This document shows, piece by piece, positions 530 to 8,779 of a stretch of DNA of 11,693 nt. Source of the stretch: Chloroflexota bacterium (GTDB lineage Bacteria > Chloroflexota > Dehalococcoidia > Lucifugimonadales > UBA826); assembly GCA_002718095.1 (NCBI GenBank), contig PBDP01000004.1:41782-53474 (forward strand). Direction: 5' to 3'. How positions within the stretch are numbered: the first letter of the stretch is position 1; each line of letters starts with the position of its first letter. Under the pieces are notes generated by a model. That model was given only the letters and a program-made list of their open reading frames with translations. It had not been told where the DNA came from and did no database searches. The position numbers and the translations under genes are program-made.

Positions 530-1543
530 TTATTTAATTGGATCAAAAATTTGTACACGATGTCTATTTGTCTCTAACGCATATACTCTTGAATCTTCAT
601 CGACAGTTACAGCTGTAAGTCCCCAAAAATATTTATCTATATAAGAAGAAATAGTGTGAGGGGAGCTGTTTTCAGGTATATCTAAATCGTATTCTAGATT
701 TGATGATTTTCTGGGATCTGCTTCGTCTGGGTTTACGTCTAAGAATTCTTGCCCCCACTGTGACATGGTTGCTTGCCCCCTAGTTGAGAATACAGGTTCG
801 CCTTCTGGAGATAATACTTGAAGACTTTCATTGCCAGAATCAGCAACGTATACAATCCCACTTTTGTCTATAGCTACTCCAGATGGGTTTTTAAGTATAC
901 CGTTTCCAGTCATTTCAGAAATCAAGTTCCCGTCTGTTGAAAATTTTAATATCCTATTATTTCCCCAATCTGCTACGTAAATATTTTCTTGACTGTCTAG
1001 ATTAATTCCCCAAGGTAAATTGAATAAATTTGAGTCTCCAAAGCAAAATTTTTGATTTCCAAATTTGTCGTATTGTTGTACGCGATTATTTTTATGGTCG
1101 ACAACCCATAAATTATCATCTTTATCGAATTTGATTCCGGAGGGGCCAGAAAATTCACCTTCTCTAGTTCCAAATTGACCCCATTTGTATTGAAAATTAC
1201 CTTCAGGATCAAATACAGTTATTGTATTTTTGTATTCACAACTTACATATATCATGCCTTCAGAATCTAAATCTATAGATGTTGGCCAAATAAATTGACC
1301 GTCAGCCTCTCCAAAATGACCAGCAACACCGTGAAACCCATCATTAATATCACAAATCACTACCCTTACAGATTCAGGCTCTCCGTAAGAATCAACTTCA
1401 TGAGACCTATTTAGCACATACATTTTCTTGTTAGAACCTATAGCTATATCTCGTGGATAAAAGAATCCTCGGCCTCTTTTTCCGGAAAAACCAATGGTTT
1501 TTTTATATTTCAAAGAAAAATTTTTTGAGTTTGCTGTTACCAT
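530..1543 (-). CDS. NHL-repeat beta-propeller protein
   Basis: 337 aa, with no signal peptide or membrane segment, so probably cytoplasmic. Seen: six NHL-type blades with the pattern P-x-[GD]-I-[AK]-hD-x2-[GN]-x-[IL]-[YW]-V-x-[DE]-x2-N-x-R-[IV], at about residues 28-60, 85-113, 131-160, 176-206, 218-248 and 306-335. The clearest are residues 134-160 (DNLWVVDHKNNRVQQYDKFG) and 178-203 (NIYVADWGNNRILKF). Glycine-rich connectors (FGEADGQF, FGTREGEF) precede blades 2 and 3. About 50 residues (255-305), rich in D, E, P and S, interrupt the propeller between blades 5 and 6. Family: NHL propellers bind proteins, RNA or small ligands, and some are lyases, so no reaction can be assigned. Start: the frame extends 11 codons upstream into the DUF1800 gene, but AAAGGG 6 bases before the ATG at 1541-1543 favours this start, 13 bases after the DUF1800 stop. 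Likely co-transcribed with both neighbours. Confidence 0.85.
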   Translation of the reverse strand: MVTANSKNFSLKYKKTIGFSGKRGRGFFYPRDIAIGSNKKMYVLNRSHEVDSYGEPESVRVVICDINDGFHGVAGHFGEADGQFIWPTSIDLDSEGMIYVSCEYKNTITVFDPEGNFQYKWGQFGTREGEFSGPSGIKFDKDDNLWVVDHKNNRVQQYDKFGNQKFCFGDSNLFNLPWGINLDSQENIYVADWGNNRILKFSTDGNLISEMTGNGILKNPSGVAIDKSGIVYVADSGNESLQVLSPEGEPVFSTRGQATMSQWGQEFLDVNPDEADPRKSSNLEYDLDIPENSSPHTISSYIDKYFWGLTAVTVDEDSRVYALETNRHRVQIFDPIK

Positions 1544-1549
1544 ATATTT

Positions 1550-1555
1550 CCCTTT
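1550..1555 (-). promoter_or_regulatory. Shine-Dalgarno deciding the NHL start
   Basis: AAAGGG on the minus strand, 6 bases before the ATG at 1541-1543. The same AAAGGG hexamer precedes the DUF1800 ATG at about the same spacing. Confidence 0.55.
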
Positions 1556-1556
1556 A

Positions 1557-2999
1557 TTAGCATAGCTGGTATTCACGGGTGGTTGTTATTAATTGCAGCA
1601 TAGTTTTAACATAATCTGTAGGAGTTAAAGACTCTTCCGATTTATGCTCCTTCGCAAATGAGATTAATGTCTTTTTTGTTTCTTCTCCTATTTCTATGGA
1701 ACCCAATATTTCCATACAAGAATCTATAAAATCTGAAGGGGTTTCACTGTATCTCGATACAAGGCTATCTACCATTTTTTTAACTCCAGGAGATTCTGTG
1801 TCCCCGAATTGCTCAGAACAGAAGTTGATTCTCTCTACGAGTGTTCCTGTATCAGACCATTCCAATCCCCCATGCCAACCTTCTACAGTTGGAGGATTGT
1901 AAATATGTTGACCCATATTAACCATTGCTAAAAACACATTTCTTGCATCGAGTCTGGGGCCATTTCCAAATTTATCTGTTAGCCGCATTACACTAATTAC
2001 TAGTTCAGATGGGCTTTTCACTTTTTTGTAAAAATTGGATCTGTCTTTAAACTCTTCTGACAAAAATAAAACCCTGAGCATTTCTTTTATATTGTAGTTA
2101 GTTTCAAAATAAACTTTTTTCAATTTTTTTATAAGTTTAGGGTTATTTGGTGCTTCATATGGCCATTGAGTTACAGGAACTTCATCAGCAAGAAAGAAAT
2201 TGCATATATGCCTTGATATGAATGTTGCGGTTGCGTCCTGTTTGCAAATAATTTGAACTATATCTTCGCCTGTAAAGTTGCCTTTTTCTCCTAAGAATTC
2301 TTTTTCACCATCGTCATGATCTTCAGGTAAATATTGAAATTGCCAAGCATATCTTCCGTATGGCTGAAATGAACACTTAGAAGCTTGTGCGTCTATATAA
2401 TCACCATTTACAACAGTCCATCCGGTAAATGAACGTGCGCATTCCTTGACATCTTTTTCGGAATAATTTCCTACTCCCATAGAAAACAGTTCCAGCAATT
2501 CGCGTCCGTAGTTTTCATTAATTTCATCTTTATGATTGGTCCAATTGTCTAGCCAATAAATCATTGCAGGGTCTTTTGATAAAGATATTAGCAAATCAGA
2601 AAATGAACCTAATCCCTTATCCCTGAACATAGATATTTGGCGCCTCATGGGAATTGCTCCAGATAATTTTGTAACACTAGTCGCAAAAATTGTGTGCCAG
2701 AACAAAGCGATTTTTTCGCTTAGAGGAGCATTTGTAGAAACCATTCTGTAGATCCATTCAGTTGGTCCCCCGTACGGACCCATGGTTGCAGAAGTTTCAG
2801 TATGGTATCTCGTGATAAGGGAGTCAGGCATTCGCGTGATATTAACGGGAGTTAAGAGCTCTTCTACTGTTTTTTCGTACCCAATAGAATCATAATAATC
2901 TAACTCATCCGAAGAAGACCCAAAACCCGCTCTTCTCAATAAGTGCGCAATTTGGTACCTGTGTTCTGTTTTTGGTGAGAATTTAGTTTTAGTAACCAT
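1557..2999 (-). CDS. DUF1800 domain-containing protein
   Basis: 480 aa, the usual length for DUF1800 (PF08811) proteins. Seen: the N-terminal signature HLLRRAGFG (19-27); FWHTIFATS (100-108); DPAMIYWLDNWTN (143-155); the strongest block NENYGRELLELFSMG (161-175), followed by YSEKDVKECARSFTGW (179-194); NPPTVEGWHGG (368-378) near the C-terminus; and a closing TTREYQLC. All family blocks are present, so the gene looks intact. Family: the biochemical function is unknown. DUF1800 proteins are commonly encoded next to a DUF1501 (alkaline phosphatase/sulfatase-like) protein and often carry export signals. Neither a DUF1501 neighbour nor a signal peptide is seen here. Start: a GTG at 3012-3014 extends the frame by 5 codons, but AAAGGG (3006-3011) lies 6 bases before the ATG at 2997-2999, which is preferred. 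First gene of the minus-strand operon, followed after 13 bases by the NHL gene. Confidence 0.93.
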   Translation of the reverse strand: MVTKTKFSPKTEHRYQIAHLLRRAGFGSSSDELDYYDSIGYEKTVEELLTPVNITRMPDSLITRYHTETSATMGPYGGPTEWIYRMVSTNAPLSEKIALFWHTIFATSVTKLSGAIPMRRQISMFRDKGLGSFSDLLISLSKDPAMIYWLDNWTNHKDEINENYGRELLELFSMGVGNYSEKDVKECARSFTGWTVVNGDYIDAQASKCSFQPYGRYAWQFQYLPEDHDDGEKEFLGEKGNFTGEDIVQIICKQDATATFISRHICNFFLADEVPVTQWPYEAPNNPKLIKKLKKVYFETNYNIKEMLRVLFLSEEFKDRSNFYKKVKSPSELVISVMRLTDKFGNGPRLDARNVFLAMVNMGQHIYNPPTVEGWHGGLEWSDTGTLVERINFCSEQFGDTESPGVKKMVDSLVSRYSETPSDFIDSCMEILGSIEIGEETKKTLISFAKEHKSEESLTPTDYVKTMLQLITTTREYQLC

Positions 3000-3005
3000 A
3001 AACAA

Positions 3006-3011
3006 CCCTTT
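3006..3011 (-). promoter_or_regulatory. Shine-Dalgarno deciding the DUF1800 start
   Basis: AAAGGG on the minus strand, 6 bases before the ATG at 2997-2999. It overlaps the codons of the longer GTG-initiated reading, which makes that reading less likely. Confidence 0.55.
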
Positions 3012-3032
3012 CACAAATTCCAGTATTTATTG

Positions 3033-3112: not shown

Positions 3113-3141
3113 TTGTGTTTTATTACAAATACATGTATTAT
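3113..3141 (+). promoter_or_regulatory. Sigma70-like promoter of the zinc-ribbon/DICT operon
   Basis: TTGTGT (3113-3118), a 17-base spacer, then TATTAT (3136-3141). This is optimal spacing with one mismatch from TATAAT. Transcription would begin near 3148, giving a leader of about 30 bases before the ATG at 3180. Confidence 0.55.
3128..3139. promoter_or_regulatory. 12-base perfect palindrome overlapping the -10 box (candidate operator)
   Basis: AATACATGTATT reads identically on both strands and covers the end of the spacer and the first four bases of the -10 at 3136-3141. The position fits a dimeric repressor site that blocks RNA polymerase. The regulator is unknown, and palindromes of this size can arise by chance in AT-rich DNA. 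Confidence 0.35.
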
Positions 3142-3179
3142 GTTTATCATAATGCAATTACTTAGAAGGAGAGTGTATT

Positions 3180-3320
3180 ATGTACAACAAATGTTCAAGG
3201 TGCGGTGGGGCTTACGTGGAAGTTATTGAAATAGGTGCGGTTTTAGTCAAGTGCATTATGTGCGGACGTGCACCTTCATCGAGTATTAAAACATCTAAAC
3301 ATAAGTCTAAAGCGGCTTAA
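3180..3320 (+). CDS. 46-aa zinc-ribbon protein
   Basis: Seen: ATG at 3180, stop TAA at 3318-3320, and a strong Shine-Dalgarno (AGAAGGAGAG, 3164-3173) 6 bases before the ATG. The protein has two Cys-x2-Cys knuckles, C5-SR-C8-GG and C25-IM-C28-GR, separated by 16 residues with alternating hydrophobics (YVEVIEIGAVLVK). This is the standard layout of a rubredoxin-like zinc ribbon. The tail (residues 33-46) is rich in Ser and Lys. Family: such mini zinc ribbons bind Zn2+ and act in nucleic-acid or protein contacts; no specific family is recognised. Context: first gene of a plus-strand operon, 17 bases before the 69-aa gene, directly downstream of the promoter at 3113-3141. The ribosome-binding site, the paired CxxC motifs and the position make it a real gene despite its size. 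Confidence 0.85.
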   Translation: MYNKCSRCGGAYVEVIEIGAVLVKCIMCGRAPSSSIKTSKHKSKAA

Positions 3321-3337
3321 TAAAGGAGAAGAAAGAA

Positions 3338-3547
3338 ATGGATAAAGAAACAAAACTTAGTTCTTGGATAGAGATGGCGGAAGGATTGTATGATTTTTTA
3401 AATCGTAGAAATACAACCATTAATTATAGTTTTCAAGATTTGGACGTATTTGTGCCTCAAGCAACAGGTGAAAATTCAGAGAGAGCAAAGTGGACAATCG
3501 ACGGAACGGTTAGCTTAAGCACCTTTGAAAACGGTGAAACCAAATAA
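3338..3547 (+). CDS. 69-aa hypothetical protein
   Basis: Not recognised. Seen: a good Shine-Dalgarno (AAGGAGAA, 3323-3330) 7 bases before the ATG. The N-terminal third (about residues 6-22, LSSWIEMAEGLYDFLN) looks like an amphipathic helix. It is followed by segments with beta-like alternation (TINYSFQDLDVFVPQ; AKWTIDGTVSLSTF). It is acidic, soluble, has no cysteines and no signal peptide. It lies 17 bases after the zinc-ribbon gene and 9 bases before the 118-aa gene, so it is almost certainly part of the same transcript. Function unknown; a small accessory or partner of the downstream DICT protein is the only hint, and it comes from position alone. Confidence 0.75.
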   Translation: MDKETKLSSWIEMAEGLYDFLNRRNTTINYSFQDLDVFVPQATGENSERAKWTIDGTVSLSTFENGETK

Positions 3548-3556
3548 TTATTATTG

Positions 3557-3913
3557 ATGAAAACTATAAAAAGTAATTTTAATGCCCAAGGCCTAGTTCG
3601 AATTGATTCAGATGATTTAAAACTTGAGATTAAGTTTGAAGCAAGTCAAATATACGTGAATGTTATTAGCGTAAATCCTCGAAACTTGAAAACGTTTTTT
3701 AATTTGTCTGACTTAAAGAAACTAATGATTGATGTTGCAGACAAACTGGCATTTTGGAAATTTGACGTAACAATCACATGGGAAGGAGATGAACTGGCAT
3801 ATTTAGGTCAGCATGCTAACCCAAATATATTACAGAAATTTATTGTTGCAAAAAATGTTGAAATTAAAAATTTAAAAGGATTTGCGAAATTACTGGGAGG
3901 TAGATCGACATGA
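3557..3913 (+). CDS. 118-aa hypothetical protein
   Basis: Not recognised. Seen: mixed alpha/beta character, with strand-like segments (GLVRIDSDDLKLEIKFEASQ; IYVNVISV; KFDVTITWEGDELAYLG), a central helix around residues 48-67 (LSDLKKLMIDVADKLAFW) and a Lys-rich C-terminus. No cysteines, signal peptide or membrane segment. Start: an in-frame TTG precedes the ATG by one codon; the ATG is preferred. There is no clear Shine-Dalgarno, so translation probably depends on coupling with the 69-aa gene that ends 9 bases upstream. Its stop overlaps the ATG of the DICT gene (ATGA at 3910-3913), a strong sign of coupled expression and possibly of a complex with the DICT protein. Confidence 0.78.
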   Translation: MKTIKSNFNAQGLVRIDSDDLKLEIKFEASQIYVNVISVNPRNLKTFFNLSDLKKLMIDVADKLAFWKFDVTITWEGDELAYLGQHANPNILQKFIVAKNVEIKNLKGFAKLLGGRST

Positions 3914-5016
3914 CTTTCAAGTGGCAATTAGATAAGACCACTTCAGATACGAATAGAAGCAGTGTTAGGCAGCTGGTACTAGAAATGGATGAAGGGTTAA
4001 GGGGAAATGGATTACCGATAGAAGGTTTTGAATTTATGCATTCCTCTAAAAAAATGCTAGATATAACTAGACAGATTGAAAATGAAATATTACTTTCGGA
4101 GCAACCTTCATCTTTGTATGTTGGATTTCAAGCTATTGAAAAACTTGATACTGAAATTCCTAGATACGAAGAGCTTATAAAGAACAATATAGAGGTAAAA
4201 GCATTTGGTATAGGAAAACCTAGTGGAATACATGGGAAATCTTTAAGTACCTGGATAGAAATTCCAAAGTCTGTAAGTCTAGTAGAAAATCAGTGGTTTT
4301 TGGTATCAGAATCTCCTTCTCCTATAGCGTTTGTTGGGTGGGAGGTATCAGAAGATATATTTGCTGAAGGTAAGTTGTCAGATCCCGGTAAAATGTTTGA
4401 AGGATTTGTTTCGTCTGATGATCGTGTTGTTAAGTCATTATTACAACACTTAGATTCCGTTTGTATGGGGCAAGTTAACCAACCAATTGATGCTGACAAA
4501 CTATCTACTTTTATAGGAAGAAAGGTTGAAAAAGTTATGGTTGTTACACAAGATAAACCTGAAAACAATTTACCATTTGCGCCTACCTCAATGATAAAAG
4601 CTACTTCTGAACTTTGTGAAAAACTTGAATCTGAGGTTATTTTATATGACTTGTCAGCGGCATCTTTTTTTGTAGAACCAGGAGGGCATGGCGATAGTGC
4701 TGGTCAGAGATGGAAGGGGTTATTAAATAAACGAGATCTTGAACTACTTGGTAGAAATGATTTAAATAAACAGATGAGCGTTATGAATAACACGAACCTG
4801 AATTCACAAGCTTTACTGGCAGAAAAACATGGATTTGTGAACATACATAAGGCTGCCCTAGAGCATAATGTCGATTTAGTCATAGTTCCTGAATATTATG
4901 AAAACCCAAGTCTAATAGATCGAATTGTTGGTAATCAATTATCAAAATTAGACAACTATGAAGCTGCATCGTTTATCATATTGGATGGAGAAGGTAACTT
5001 TAGGCAATTTGAGTAG
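3910..5016 (+). CDS. DICT sensory domain fused to a USP-like domain
   Basis: 368 aa, soluble. Seen: residues about 65-185 fit the DICT domain (PF10069): SLYVGFQAIEKL, then PRYEELIKNNIEVKAFGIGKP, then NQWFLVSESPSPIAFVGWEV, then a helical end (DRVVKSLLQHLDSVC). Residues about 205-360 look like a universal-stress-protein-type alpha/beta fold: strand VEKVMVVTQ, a long helix, strand SEVILYDLS, an insert with a GGHGDSAGQRWKG loop (258-270), helix ending KAALEHNVD, strand LVIVPEYY, helix SLIDRIVGNQLSKL and strand AASFIILDG. The classic ATP-binding G-x2-G-x9-G[ST] motif is not obvious. Family: DICT domains occur in cyanobacteria and other bacteria with diguanylate cyclases and histidine kinases and are proposed light/redox sensors. 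Here there is no output domain of that kind. GGGAGG (3895-3900) precedes the ATG, which overlaps the upstream stop. DICT is assigned from pattern; the USP-like half is less certain. Confidence 0.75.
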   Translation: MTFKWQLDKTTSDTNRSSVRQLVLEMDEGLRGNGLPIEGFEFMHSSKKMLDITRQIENEILLSEQPSSLYVGFQAIEKLDTEIPRYEELIKNNIEVKAFGIGKPSGIHGKSLSTWIEIPKSVSLVENQWFLVSESPSPIAFVGWEVSEDIFAEGKLSDPGKMFEGFVSSDDRVVKSLLQHLDSVCMGQVNQPIDADKLSTFIGRKVEKVMVVTQDKPENNLPFAPTSMIKATSELCEKLESEVILYDLSAASFFVEPGGHGDSAGQRWKGLLNKRDLELLGRNDLNKQMSVMNNTNLNSQALLAEKHGFVNIHKAALEHNVDLVIVPEYYENPSLIDRIVGNQLSKLDNYEAASFIILDGEGNFRQFE

Positions 5017-5028
5017 AAGGTTATTTTG

Positions 5029-6471
5029 ATGAATATATTAGTAACTGGAGCGACAGGGTATGTAGGGTCTAGGCTTGTAGCTGCATTGTCCTCAGATCAT
5101 CAAGTAAAAAGTCTTGTTAGAGACGAGATTTCTTATAAAGATAAATTTGGTTATTTAAACACAACCATTTGTAAAGGCGACTTAGTTGACCTAGAAAGTA
5201 TAAAAGATTACTTTCAAAATGTAGATATTGCATTCTATTTAGTACATTCATTGTCTGCAGGAAACAAATTTTACGATAAGGAGCTTCTTTGTGCCCAGAA
5301 TTTTATTGATGCTGCTAAGAAGAATAATGTAAAAAGAATTATTTATTTAGGTGGCCTTTCTGACGATACTAAACCTCTGTCTCCGCATCTCAAGAGTCGA
5401 AATGAAGTAGGCGAGATACTTCGTTCTTCAGGTATTCCGTGTATTGAACTTCAATCTTCAATAATAATTGGAGAGGGCGGATTATCTTATGAAATAATGA
5501 AAAGTCTAGTCCATAAATTGCCTATCATGATCACTCCTAGATGGGTGTCGTCTTTATCTCAACCAATATGGATTAATGATGTTATTAAGTACTTGAAAGA
5601 AAGTATTTCTATAGATATATCAGATAGTCTGATTGTGCAGATAGGAGGCCCTAGTATAGTTACATATAAAAATTTAATGGCTACATATGCTGAAATATAT
5701 GGATTAAAAAGGTTTATGATTCCAGTTCCAGTTTTAACCCCAAGATTGTCTAGTTTATGGTTAGGATTGGTCACCCCTGCATATGCCCGAGCTGGGAAAA
5801 AATTAATTGAAAGCCTTAAAACAAACAGCATAATTACTGATAAAAAGGGTACAGGATTATTTAATATTACCCCTGTTGATTTCAAAGAAGCATTAAAAAA
5901 TGTCATAAGTATGAAAGAAACCGACATGATCGGAGCTCGATGGTTTGATCCAGTTTCTTCGGGACCTAGATTAAGCAATAAGGCCCCGTTAAAAGAAATC
6001 GAATATAAATATCAAATGACAGACGAGAGAAAGATAACAACAACAGCTAATACGACTCAAGCATTTAAGCCTATAAATGATATAGGTGGTCTTAATGGGT
6101 GGTATTTCGCCAATTTTTTGTGGAAAATTAGAGGCTGGTTAGATTTATTTGTAGGAGGAGTCGGGACAAGAAGAACTAGATTTAAAAAAGATAGGTTCGT
6201 TATTGGAGATACGTTGGATTGGTGGAGAATTTCAGACACGATTGAAGGAGAAATGGTCGAATTTAAGGCAGAGATGAAATTGCCTGGGGAAGCTTATCTG
6301 AAATTTTCAGTTAACCCTTCTGTTAAGGGTTCTGAAATTATTCAAACTGCTGGATTCAAAACTAATAATTTGGCTGGAATACTATATTGGTATTCTTTAT
6401 ATCCGCTTCACGCATTTATATTTTCAAGAATGATAAAAGCAATAAAAAAGCGTACTTTATTTGTCGGGTAG
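5029..6471 (+). CDS. SDR-family NAD(P)-binding oxidoreductase with C-terminal DUF2867
   Basis: 480 aa. Seen: N-terminal Rossmann fold with TGATGYVGSRL (G7-x2-G10-x2-G13), then YLVHSL (70-75), then the family block RIIYLGGL (103-110) with LSPHLKSRNEVGEIL (117-131). LPIMITPRW (164-172) and the 206-252 stretch (GGPSIVTYKNLM; PVPVLTPRLSSLW; GLVTP) also match YbjT-like atypical SDRs. From about 355 the DUF2867 part follows: GWYFANFLWKIRGWLD, GGVGTRR, GDTLDWWR, AEMKLPGEAYL and YWYSLYPLHAFIF. Domain order and length are normal. Family: binds NAD(P)(H); the substrate is unknown. The classical Tyr-x3-Lys catalytic pair is not evident, as is common in atypical SDRs. Start: a TTG lies one codon upstream; AGAAGG (5015-5020) is 8 bases before the ATG, which is preferred. 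Last gene of the plus-strand operon, 12 bases after the DICT gene. Its last 15 bases overlap the convergent lipoprotein gene. Confidence 0.92.
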   Translation: MNILVTGATGYVGSRLVAALSSDHQVKSLVRDEISYKDKFGYLNTTICKGDLVDLESIKDYFQNVDIAFYLVHSLSAGNKFYDKELLCAQNFIDAAKKNNVKRIIYLGGLSDDTKPLSPHLKSRNEVGEILRSSGIPCIELQSSIIIGEGGLSYEIMKSLVHKLPIMITPRWVSSLSQPIWINDVIKYLKESISIDISDSLIVQIGGPSIVTYKNLMATYAEIYGLKRFMIPVPVLTPRLSSLWLGLVTPAYARAGKKLIESLKTNSIITDKKGTGLFNITPVDFKEALKNVISMKETDMIGARWFDPVSSGPRLSNKAPLKEIEYKYQMTDERKITTTANTTQAFKPINDIGGLNGWYFANFLWKIRGWLDLFVGGVGTRRTRFKKDRFVIGDTLDWWRISDTIEGEMVEFKAEMKLPGEAYLKFSVNPSVKGSEIIQTAGFKTNNLAGILYWYSLYPLHAFIFSRMIKAIKKRTLFVG

Positions 6472-8703: not shown

Positions 8704-8779
8704 GGGGCTGTAGCTCAGCCGGGAGAGCGCTTCAATGGCATTGAAGAGGTCAGGAGTTCGATCCTCCTCAGCTCCACCA
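8704..8779 (+). tRNA. tRNA-Ala(GGC)
   Basis: 76 bases with CCA encoded. Acceptor stem GGGGCTG pairs with CAGCTCC (one G-T). The D-arm is GCTC/GAGC and the anticodon stem is CTTCA/TGAAG. The loop ATGGCAT has anticodon GGC at 8737-8739, which reads GCC alanine codons. The T-arm is AGGAG/CTCCT with loop TTCGATC. All stems are intact. A protein gene starts 22 bases downstream on the same strand with no terminator visible between. Confidence 0.97.

Follow-up and report, generated by a model that had tools for sequence, protein, structure and literature searches.

CarH adenosylcobalamin photoreceptors join a four-helix cap and a Rossmann B12 domain to an N-terminal MerR DNA-binding domain that targets 11-bp direct repeats, and their homologs are said to be defined by the motifs Wx9EH and ExHxxG (PMC8156234). 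Cobalamin light sensors with a helix-turn-helix (HTH) domain at either end are also on record, as are light-responsive cobalamin proteins fused to the DICT domain (PMC11796333). Furan-fatty-acid-type genes in Pseudomonas are light-induced by a LitR-type regulator, and photolyase, SDR, FAD-dependent oxidoreductase and UfaM methyltransferase genes are grouped there with a CarH/LitR-family regulator (LitR/PplR) of the MerR type (PMC9758184). The furan fatty acid genes are UfaM, UfaD and UfaO, the last corresponding to DUF1365 (PMC7380195). DICT itself was placed by a 2022 review among domains without discernible physiological purpose (PMC8846402), although a role in responding to light has been predicted for it (PMC8612252). 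Here, a five-gene unit encoding a zinc ribbon, the proteins p69 and p118, a fusion of DICT with a universal stress protein (USP)-like domain (DICT-USP) and an SDR-DUF2867 protein is described from the 1.44 Mb genome of a SAR202-clade Chloroflexota bacterium. It occupies positions 3180-6471, all on the plus strand, of the stretch analyzed (the window; 11,693 nucleotides, G000:C4:41782-53474). Because relatives carry rhodopsin, DNA-photolyase and photoprotective-lipid genes beside this unit and a vitamin B12 light-sensor gene nearby, the five genes of these surface-ocean SAR202 bacteria are probably a single operon that responds to sunlight: a B12 photoreceptor would keep it off in the dark, and light would switch it on. 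No paper describing this cluster turned up in the literature collection searched.

In order to establish how far the arrangement is shared, 16 family genomes (including that of the window, G000, which was examined via sequence searches and selected stretches) and an order-level set of 250 genomes were compared; genome bins can miss genes, and G004 is 55% complete. The named relatives by sequence were SAR202 cluster bacteria. DICT-USP and, directly upstream of it, p118 were found in an identical set of 7 of the 16 family genomes. The order and strand of zinc ribbon, p69, p118 and DICT-USP were the same in all seven, with SDR-DUF2867 located 3' of DICT-USP in each and a rhodopsin gene (226 amino acids, PF01036, 3.6e-49) between these two genes in three of the loci. 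Since p69 and p118 are kept beside each other and beside DICT-USP in every family genome having DICT-USP, despite belonging to no known family, conservation of their adjacency appears to exceed chance. Across the order, p69 was present in 16 and DICT-USP in 19 of the 250 genomes, with both in 12 (Fisher 9e-13).

Other families retain the same genes in altered arrangements. Listed in gene order, G535 and G536 carry zinc ribbon, DICT-USP, photolyase, p69, p118, SDR-DUF2867 and SDR genes, G577 carries p69, p118, DICT-USP, photolyase and SDR-DUF2867, and G516 carries zinc ribbon, DICT-USP and photolyase. The p69-p118 pair is kept where DICT-USP lies elsewhere or is absent (G162, G397, G575 and G576; loci L065, L066, L145 and L146), and sponge-type Chloroflexota have DICT-USP without the small genes (L022-L025). 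A preliminary description of this DNA had reported five same-direction genes with gaps of 17, 9, -4 (an ATGA overlap) and 12 bases; the coordinates and gaps match exactly. The adjacency check it proposed found the homologs not scattered but kept together in all seven family genomes and in other families. The sensory-redox unit that it envisaged is thus partly supported, in its conserved adjacency and its light/redox setting, but it is not indivisible, as DICT-USP occurs without the small genes and p69-p118 away from DICT-USP. The idea that DICT is a sensor signalling through the small partners or the SDR gained no support.

Light-related neighbours recur around the unit. Rhodopsin was found in four of the 16 family genomes, all four with DICT-USP, and photolyase adjoins DICT-USP in three other families, represented by four genomes; three of these genomes also have p69, p118 and SDR-DUF2867. 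Without correction for phylogeny, photolyase was present in 14/16 genomes with p69 versus 28/234 without it (Fisher 1.7e-10), and by genus, likewise uncorrected for relatedness, in 9/10 versus 10/87 (5.8e-7). The link to DICT-USP was looser, with photolyase in 11 of 19 genomes. Upstream of the zinc ribbon, relatives carry a run of same-strand genes for two CMAS methyltransferases, an FAD oxidase and DUF1365, in most cases also for an SDR, together with a pyrimidine-dimer glycosylase in G004 and G005; at the head of this cluster lie, divergently, an SDR-DUF1731 gene and a regulator gene with B12-binding_2, B12-binding and C-terminal HTH_3 domains (B12-HTH). The CMAS-CMAS-FAD oxidase-DUF1365 genes and the divergent regulator form one contiguous stretch with the operon in G002, G004, G005 and G008, whose photolyase genes lay at separate loci or were not found. 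With its CMAS, FAD-dependent oxidase and DUF1365 genes, the contiguous cluster of relatives resembles the UfaM/UfaD/UfaO pathway (PMC7380195), whereas the G000 cluster (C4:314-319 kb), whose products are predicted, lies away from the window. In G000, cluster and regulator together occupy C4:314-323 kb (L111), apart from the window, and the LitR-cluster-type genes are split over three loci. The Pseudomonas cluster shares the gene types listed above, but DICT-USP, p69 and p118 are unnamed in the available part of its description, and its regulator is MerR-type while that of SAR202 has a C-terminal XRE helix-turn-helix (PMC9758184). The earlier light/redox proposal gains support from relatives' rhodopsin, photolyase, pyrimidine-dimer glycosylase and furan-fatty-acid-type genes and from the CarH-like regulator, all located outside the five genes then considered; the light context of the DICT-USP unit is new.

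The G000 regulator gene (C4:322535-323362; L111:8500-9399) encodes B12-binding_2, B12-binding and C-terminal HTH_3 (residues 237-287) domains. Its product carries the Wx9EH motif of the helical cap (WHSGKISIAHEH) and, loosely spaced, the ExHxxG...SxV/T...GG cobalamin pattern, with ETHWMG as ExHxxG, and among solved structures it comes closest to CarH (1e-15). Cap, Rossmann B12 domain and both motifs are thus as in CarH, but a domain search detected no MerR domain, the HTH being C-terminal instead, and the predicted target is a palindrome rather than direct repeats (PMC8156234). This architecture is not without precedent, given the cobalamin sensors listed with a helix-turn-helix at either end (PMC11796333).

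The predicted target is a TGT-N8-ACA dyad, TTGTGTTTTATTACAA in the window, overlapping a putative promoter ahead of the zinc ribbon. An initial set of 13 regions (7 zinc-ribbon promoters and 6 regulator intergenic regions) contained the dyad without exception, compared to 1.5 in dinucleotide shuffles and never more than 6 in 2000; no spacing other than 8 exceeded 6 of the 13 regions. Because the 13 regions are related to one another and the choice of spacing followed their inspection, four new regions were fetched, of which three contained the dyad exactly and the fourth was one base off. Searching the 16 genomes for exact copies of the consensus TTGTRYTATARYACAA gave seven, each at the divergent promoter of the regulator; five had served to write the consensus and two (G001, G014) were new. 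The window copy has perfect arms and two inner mismatches. In other families a spacing of 12 was enriched (8 of 11 regions versus 0.9), e.g. TGTAGATTATATACTACA before p69. As for the single promoter assumed previously, a sigma-70-like site is predicted, but shuffled DNA contains sites of this kind at about the same frequency.

In the dark, the B12-HTH regulator, encoded elsewhere in the genome, would sit on the dyad over the promoter. Upon illumination the Co-C bond would break, the repressor would leave the DNA, and the five genes would be transcribed along with the furan-fatty-acid-type cluster beside the regulator. The operon products would be photoprotective and regulatory. SDR-DUF2867, in which an NAD(P)-binding domain and PF11066 are both present, may be an NAD(P)-dependent enzyme with a hydrophobic substrate. 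Since DICT-USP contains no kinase, cyclase or DNA-binding domain, it presumably acts by binding other proteins; p69 and p118 are the likeliest candidates and the zinc ribbon a possible further one, and with such partners it could constitute an adaptor or sensor complex. A more ambitious proposal is that DICT-USP, p69 and p118 represent a new type of light-signalling complex under a B12 photoreceptor of a new class (CarH sensor, C-terminal XRE domain) acting via TGT-N8/12-ACA palindromes; this is speculative and rather unlikely, but if true it would give DICT its first physiological signal. Conserved gene order, joint occurrence across genomes and a common DNA element link DICT with protection against light. 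The lineage concerned is among the most abundant uncultured ones of the ocean, and proteorhodopsin and phr genes are present in its streamlined surface members (PMC11994032). The families p69 and p118, conserved but of unknown function, gain a context.

Several observations weigh against a light-response operon of this kind. DICT-USP of the sponge-type Chloroflexota (L022-L025) has no light-gene neighbours, and in G000 the regulator lies 277 kb from the window. The B12-HTH protein lacks Wx9EH in L057 and L059 and ExHxxG in L113, L121 and L056. The dyad was noticed by eye in related promoters, with its spacing chosen afterwards, and TTGTRYTATARYACAA at two mismatches shows no excess in G000 over a reversed control (8 versus 13), so that only conserved position speaks for the window's copy. 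A dyad common to the G000 rhodopsin and photolyase genes was considered and rejected, as their promoters carry none. The same genes could instead form a redox or singlet-oxygen stress operon triggered by oxidative damage, in which a redox ligand is detected by DICT-USP and answered by the zinc ribbon and SDR, and light genes lie nearby only as light causes that stress. ChrR places the Rhodobacter furan-fatty-acid genes under singlet-oxygen control (PMC7380195), and a zinc ribbon, an NAD(P)-binding SDR and a USP-like domain are indeed present; photolyase and rhodopsin are, however, light-specific, and the neighbouring regulator has CarH light-sensor motifs rather than being an anti-sigma or redox regulator, making this explanation unlikely.

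The signalling role once suggested for DICT could also be moved to light, with DICT-USP and p69/p118 themselves a photosensory or signalling complex parallel to the B12 regulator. The predicted light response of DICT (PMC8612252), the light-responsive cobalamin proteins fused to it (PMC11796333) and the strict p118-DICT-USP adjacency, with its 4-base overlap, would fit, although no chromophore-binding feature was identified and DICT-USP and p69-p118 also occur apart; the idea is somewhat improbable. That p69 tracks photolyase more closely (14/16) than DICT-USP does (11/19), and in G194 is divergent to the photolyase-related DPRP gene, might suggest that the small proteins serve a light-protection enzyme (photolyase, rhodopsin or SDR) as chaperones or in cofactor loading and take no part in signalling. 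G004 and G005, however, have p69 while photolyase was not found (G004 being the 55% complete bin), and such a helper function is doubtful. Streamlined genomes keep gene order, and a shared signal is not required to explain the five-gene order by itself, so neighbours might be shared by chance or by such retention in an ordinary operon without common regulation. This is highly improbable, as the neighbours are rearranged yet re-associated across families, presence is phylogenetically patchy (19/250) and dyads are shared. The light-response operon repressed by the B12-HTH regulator thus remains the preferred reading.

The DICT score of the window protein is marginal, at 23.2 bits (hmmscan) and 25.1 bits (another search) against a cut-off of 23.8, while most orthologs lie above the cut-off, with up to 43.2 bits. 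The USP (PF00582) hidden Markov model cut-off of 24 bits was not reached by the window protein or by its best ortholog (16.1 bits). The AlphaFold2 model (mean pLDDT 69, residues 1-41 unreliable) shows two domains with moderate confidence; model comparison likens the first to the effector domain of archaeal TrmB, and Foldseek matches the second to 5ahw (3.2e-4). The DICT-USP fusion of the preliminary description is hence clear for DICT in orthologs and seen for USP in the predicted fold, but in the window protein DICT is marginal and USP below cut-off. Described DICT proteins are fused to GGDEF, HD-GYP or histidine kinase; here the N-terminal DICT domain is similar, but Pfam finds only DICT, and the remainder has a USP-like fold in place of such outputs. 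The usual ATP motif of universal stress proteins is G-2x-G-9x-G(S/T). This motif is absent from the seven orthologs, where the region reads YYx2PxLxDRIxGN, and ATP binding by the USP-like domain is therefore doubtful.

The zinc ribbon matched no domain family above cut-off, p69 and p118 gave nothing significant against Pfam and PDB sequences, and NCBIfam names none of the four proteins upstream of SDR-DUF2867. The p118 start is taken as the ATG at 3557, an alternative TTG at 3554 giving 119 amino acids. Its structure model is good (pLDDT 82) and has no noteworthy match in the PDB (best Z 3.6), which does not establish a novel fold. Kinship of p118 with p69 was rejected by profile-profile comparison (probability 1.8%). 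The zinc-ribbon, p69 and DICT-USP genes have good ribosome-binding sites, whereas those of p118 and SDR-DUF2867 are weak.

Table. Features of the DICT-USP unit and its upstream region (window positions).
Feature	Position	Strand	Remarks
Predicted operator, TGT-N8-ACA dyad	3113..3128		shared dyad in orthologous promoters
Predicted sigma-70-like promoter, overlapping operator	3122..3150	+	ATTACA-17-TATCAT, 9/12 matches; weak alone
Zinc ribbon, 46 aa, CxxC...CxxC	3180..3320	+	C5, C8, C25, C28 invariant in 7 orthologs
p69, 69 aa, family-less	3338..3547	+	57-63% identity, 6 family orthologs
p118, 118 aa, family-less	3557..3913	+	immediately 5' of DICT-USP in 7/7
DICT-USP, 368 aa	3910..5016	+	PF10069; orthologs 38-52% identical
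DICT domain, residues 35-187	4012..4470	+	TrmB effector/phospholipase-D-like fold, Z up to 13.3
USP-like domain, residues 205-360	4522..4989	+	universal stress proteins Z 9.4-10.6, 115-129 residues
SDR-DUF2867, 480 aa from ATG	5029..6471	+	NmrA 3.1e-19, DUF2867 7.1e-27
DUF2867 domain, residues 329-468	6013..6432	+	PF11066, 94.9 bits

The five genes are flanked on the left by minus-strand genes for an F420-dependent reductase, an NHL protein and DUF1800, and on the right by a minus-strand M9-like lipoprotein gene and a PIG-L gene. A tRNA-Ala (GGC) gene lies at 8704-8779, and the small open reading frames overlapping it are artefacts. DUF1800 and NHL-propeller genes form an expanded pair family in the small G000 genome, recurring at window 530-3014, L068 4209-7804, L110 9659-13271 and 13995-16461, and L111 10404-12858, with the NHL-propeller gene after or before the DUF1800 gene depending on the pair.

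Further observations concern the regulator surroundings and the zinc ribbons. In G000, two conserved proteins without Pfam matches (358 and 179 amino acids; L111 5283-6359 and 6386-6925) are encoded in the interval from the regulator promoter to the CMAS genes. An ABC transporter pair adjoins the B12-HTH regulator in G162 and is preceded by the palindrome ATGTACTATAATACAT or ATGTACTATAGTACAT in G004 and G005 (L117 7541-12756; L170 4934-5652; L171 400-4558), which makes it a candidate for the same regulon. Three genes before the G000 photolyase stands another small zinc-ribbon gene, the second of that genome (L112 6202-9195), and G008 has a 134-amino-acid zinc-ribbon gene convergent with SDR-DUF2867, with its own dyad copy just upstream (L169 1975-2443; L172 2252-2735). 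In G194, a group of SDR-DUF2867, SDR, p115, p69 and DPRP genes lies between two direct copies of a two-gene insertion-sequence-like element (99.8% identical; L067 2412-3641 and 10930-12159), a composite-transposon-like arrangement.

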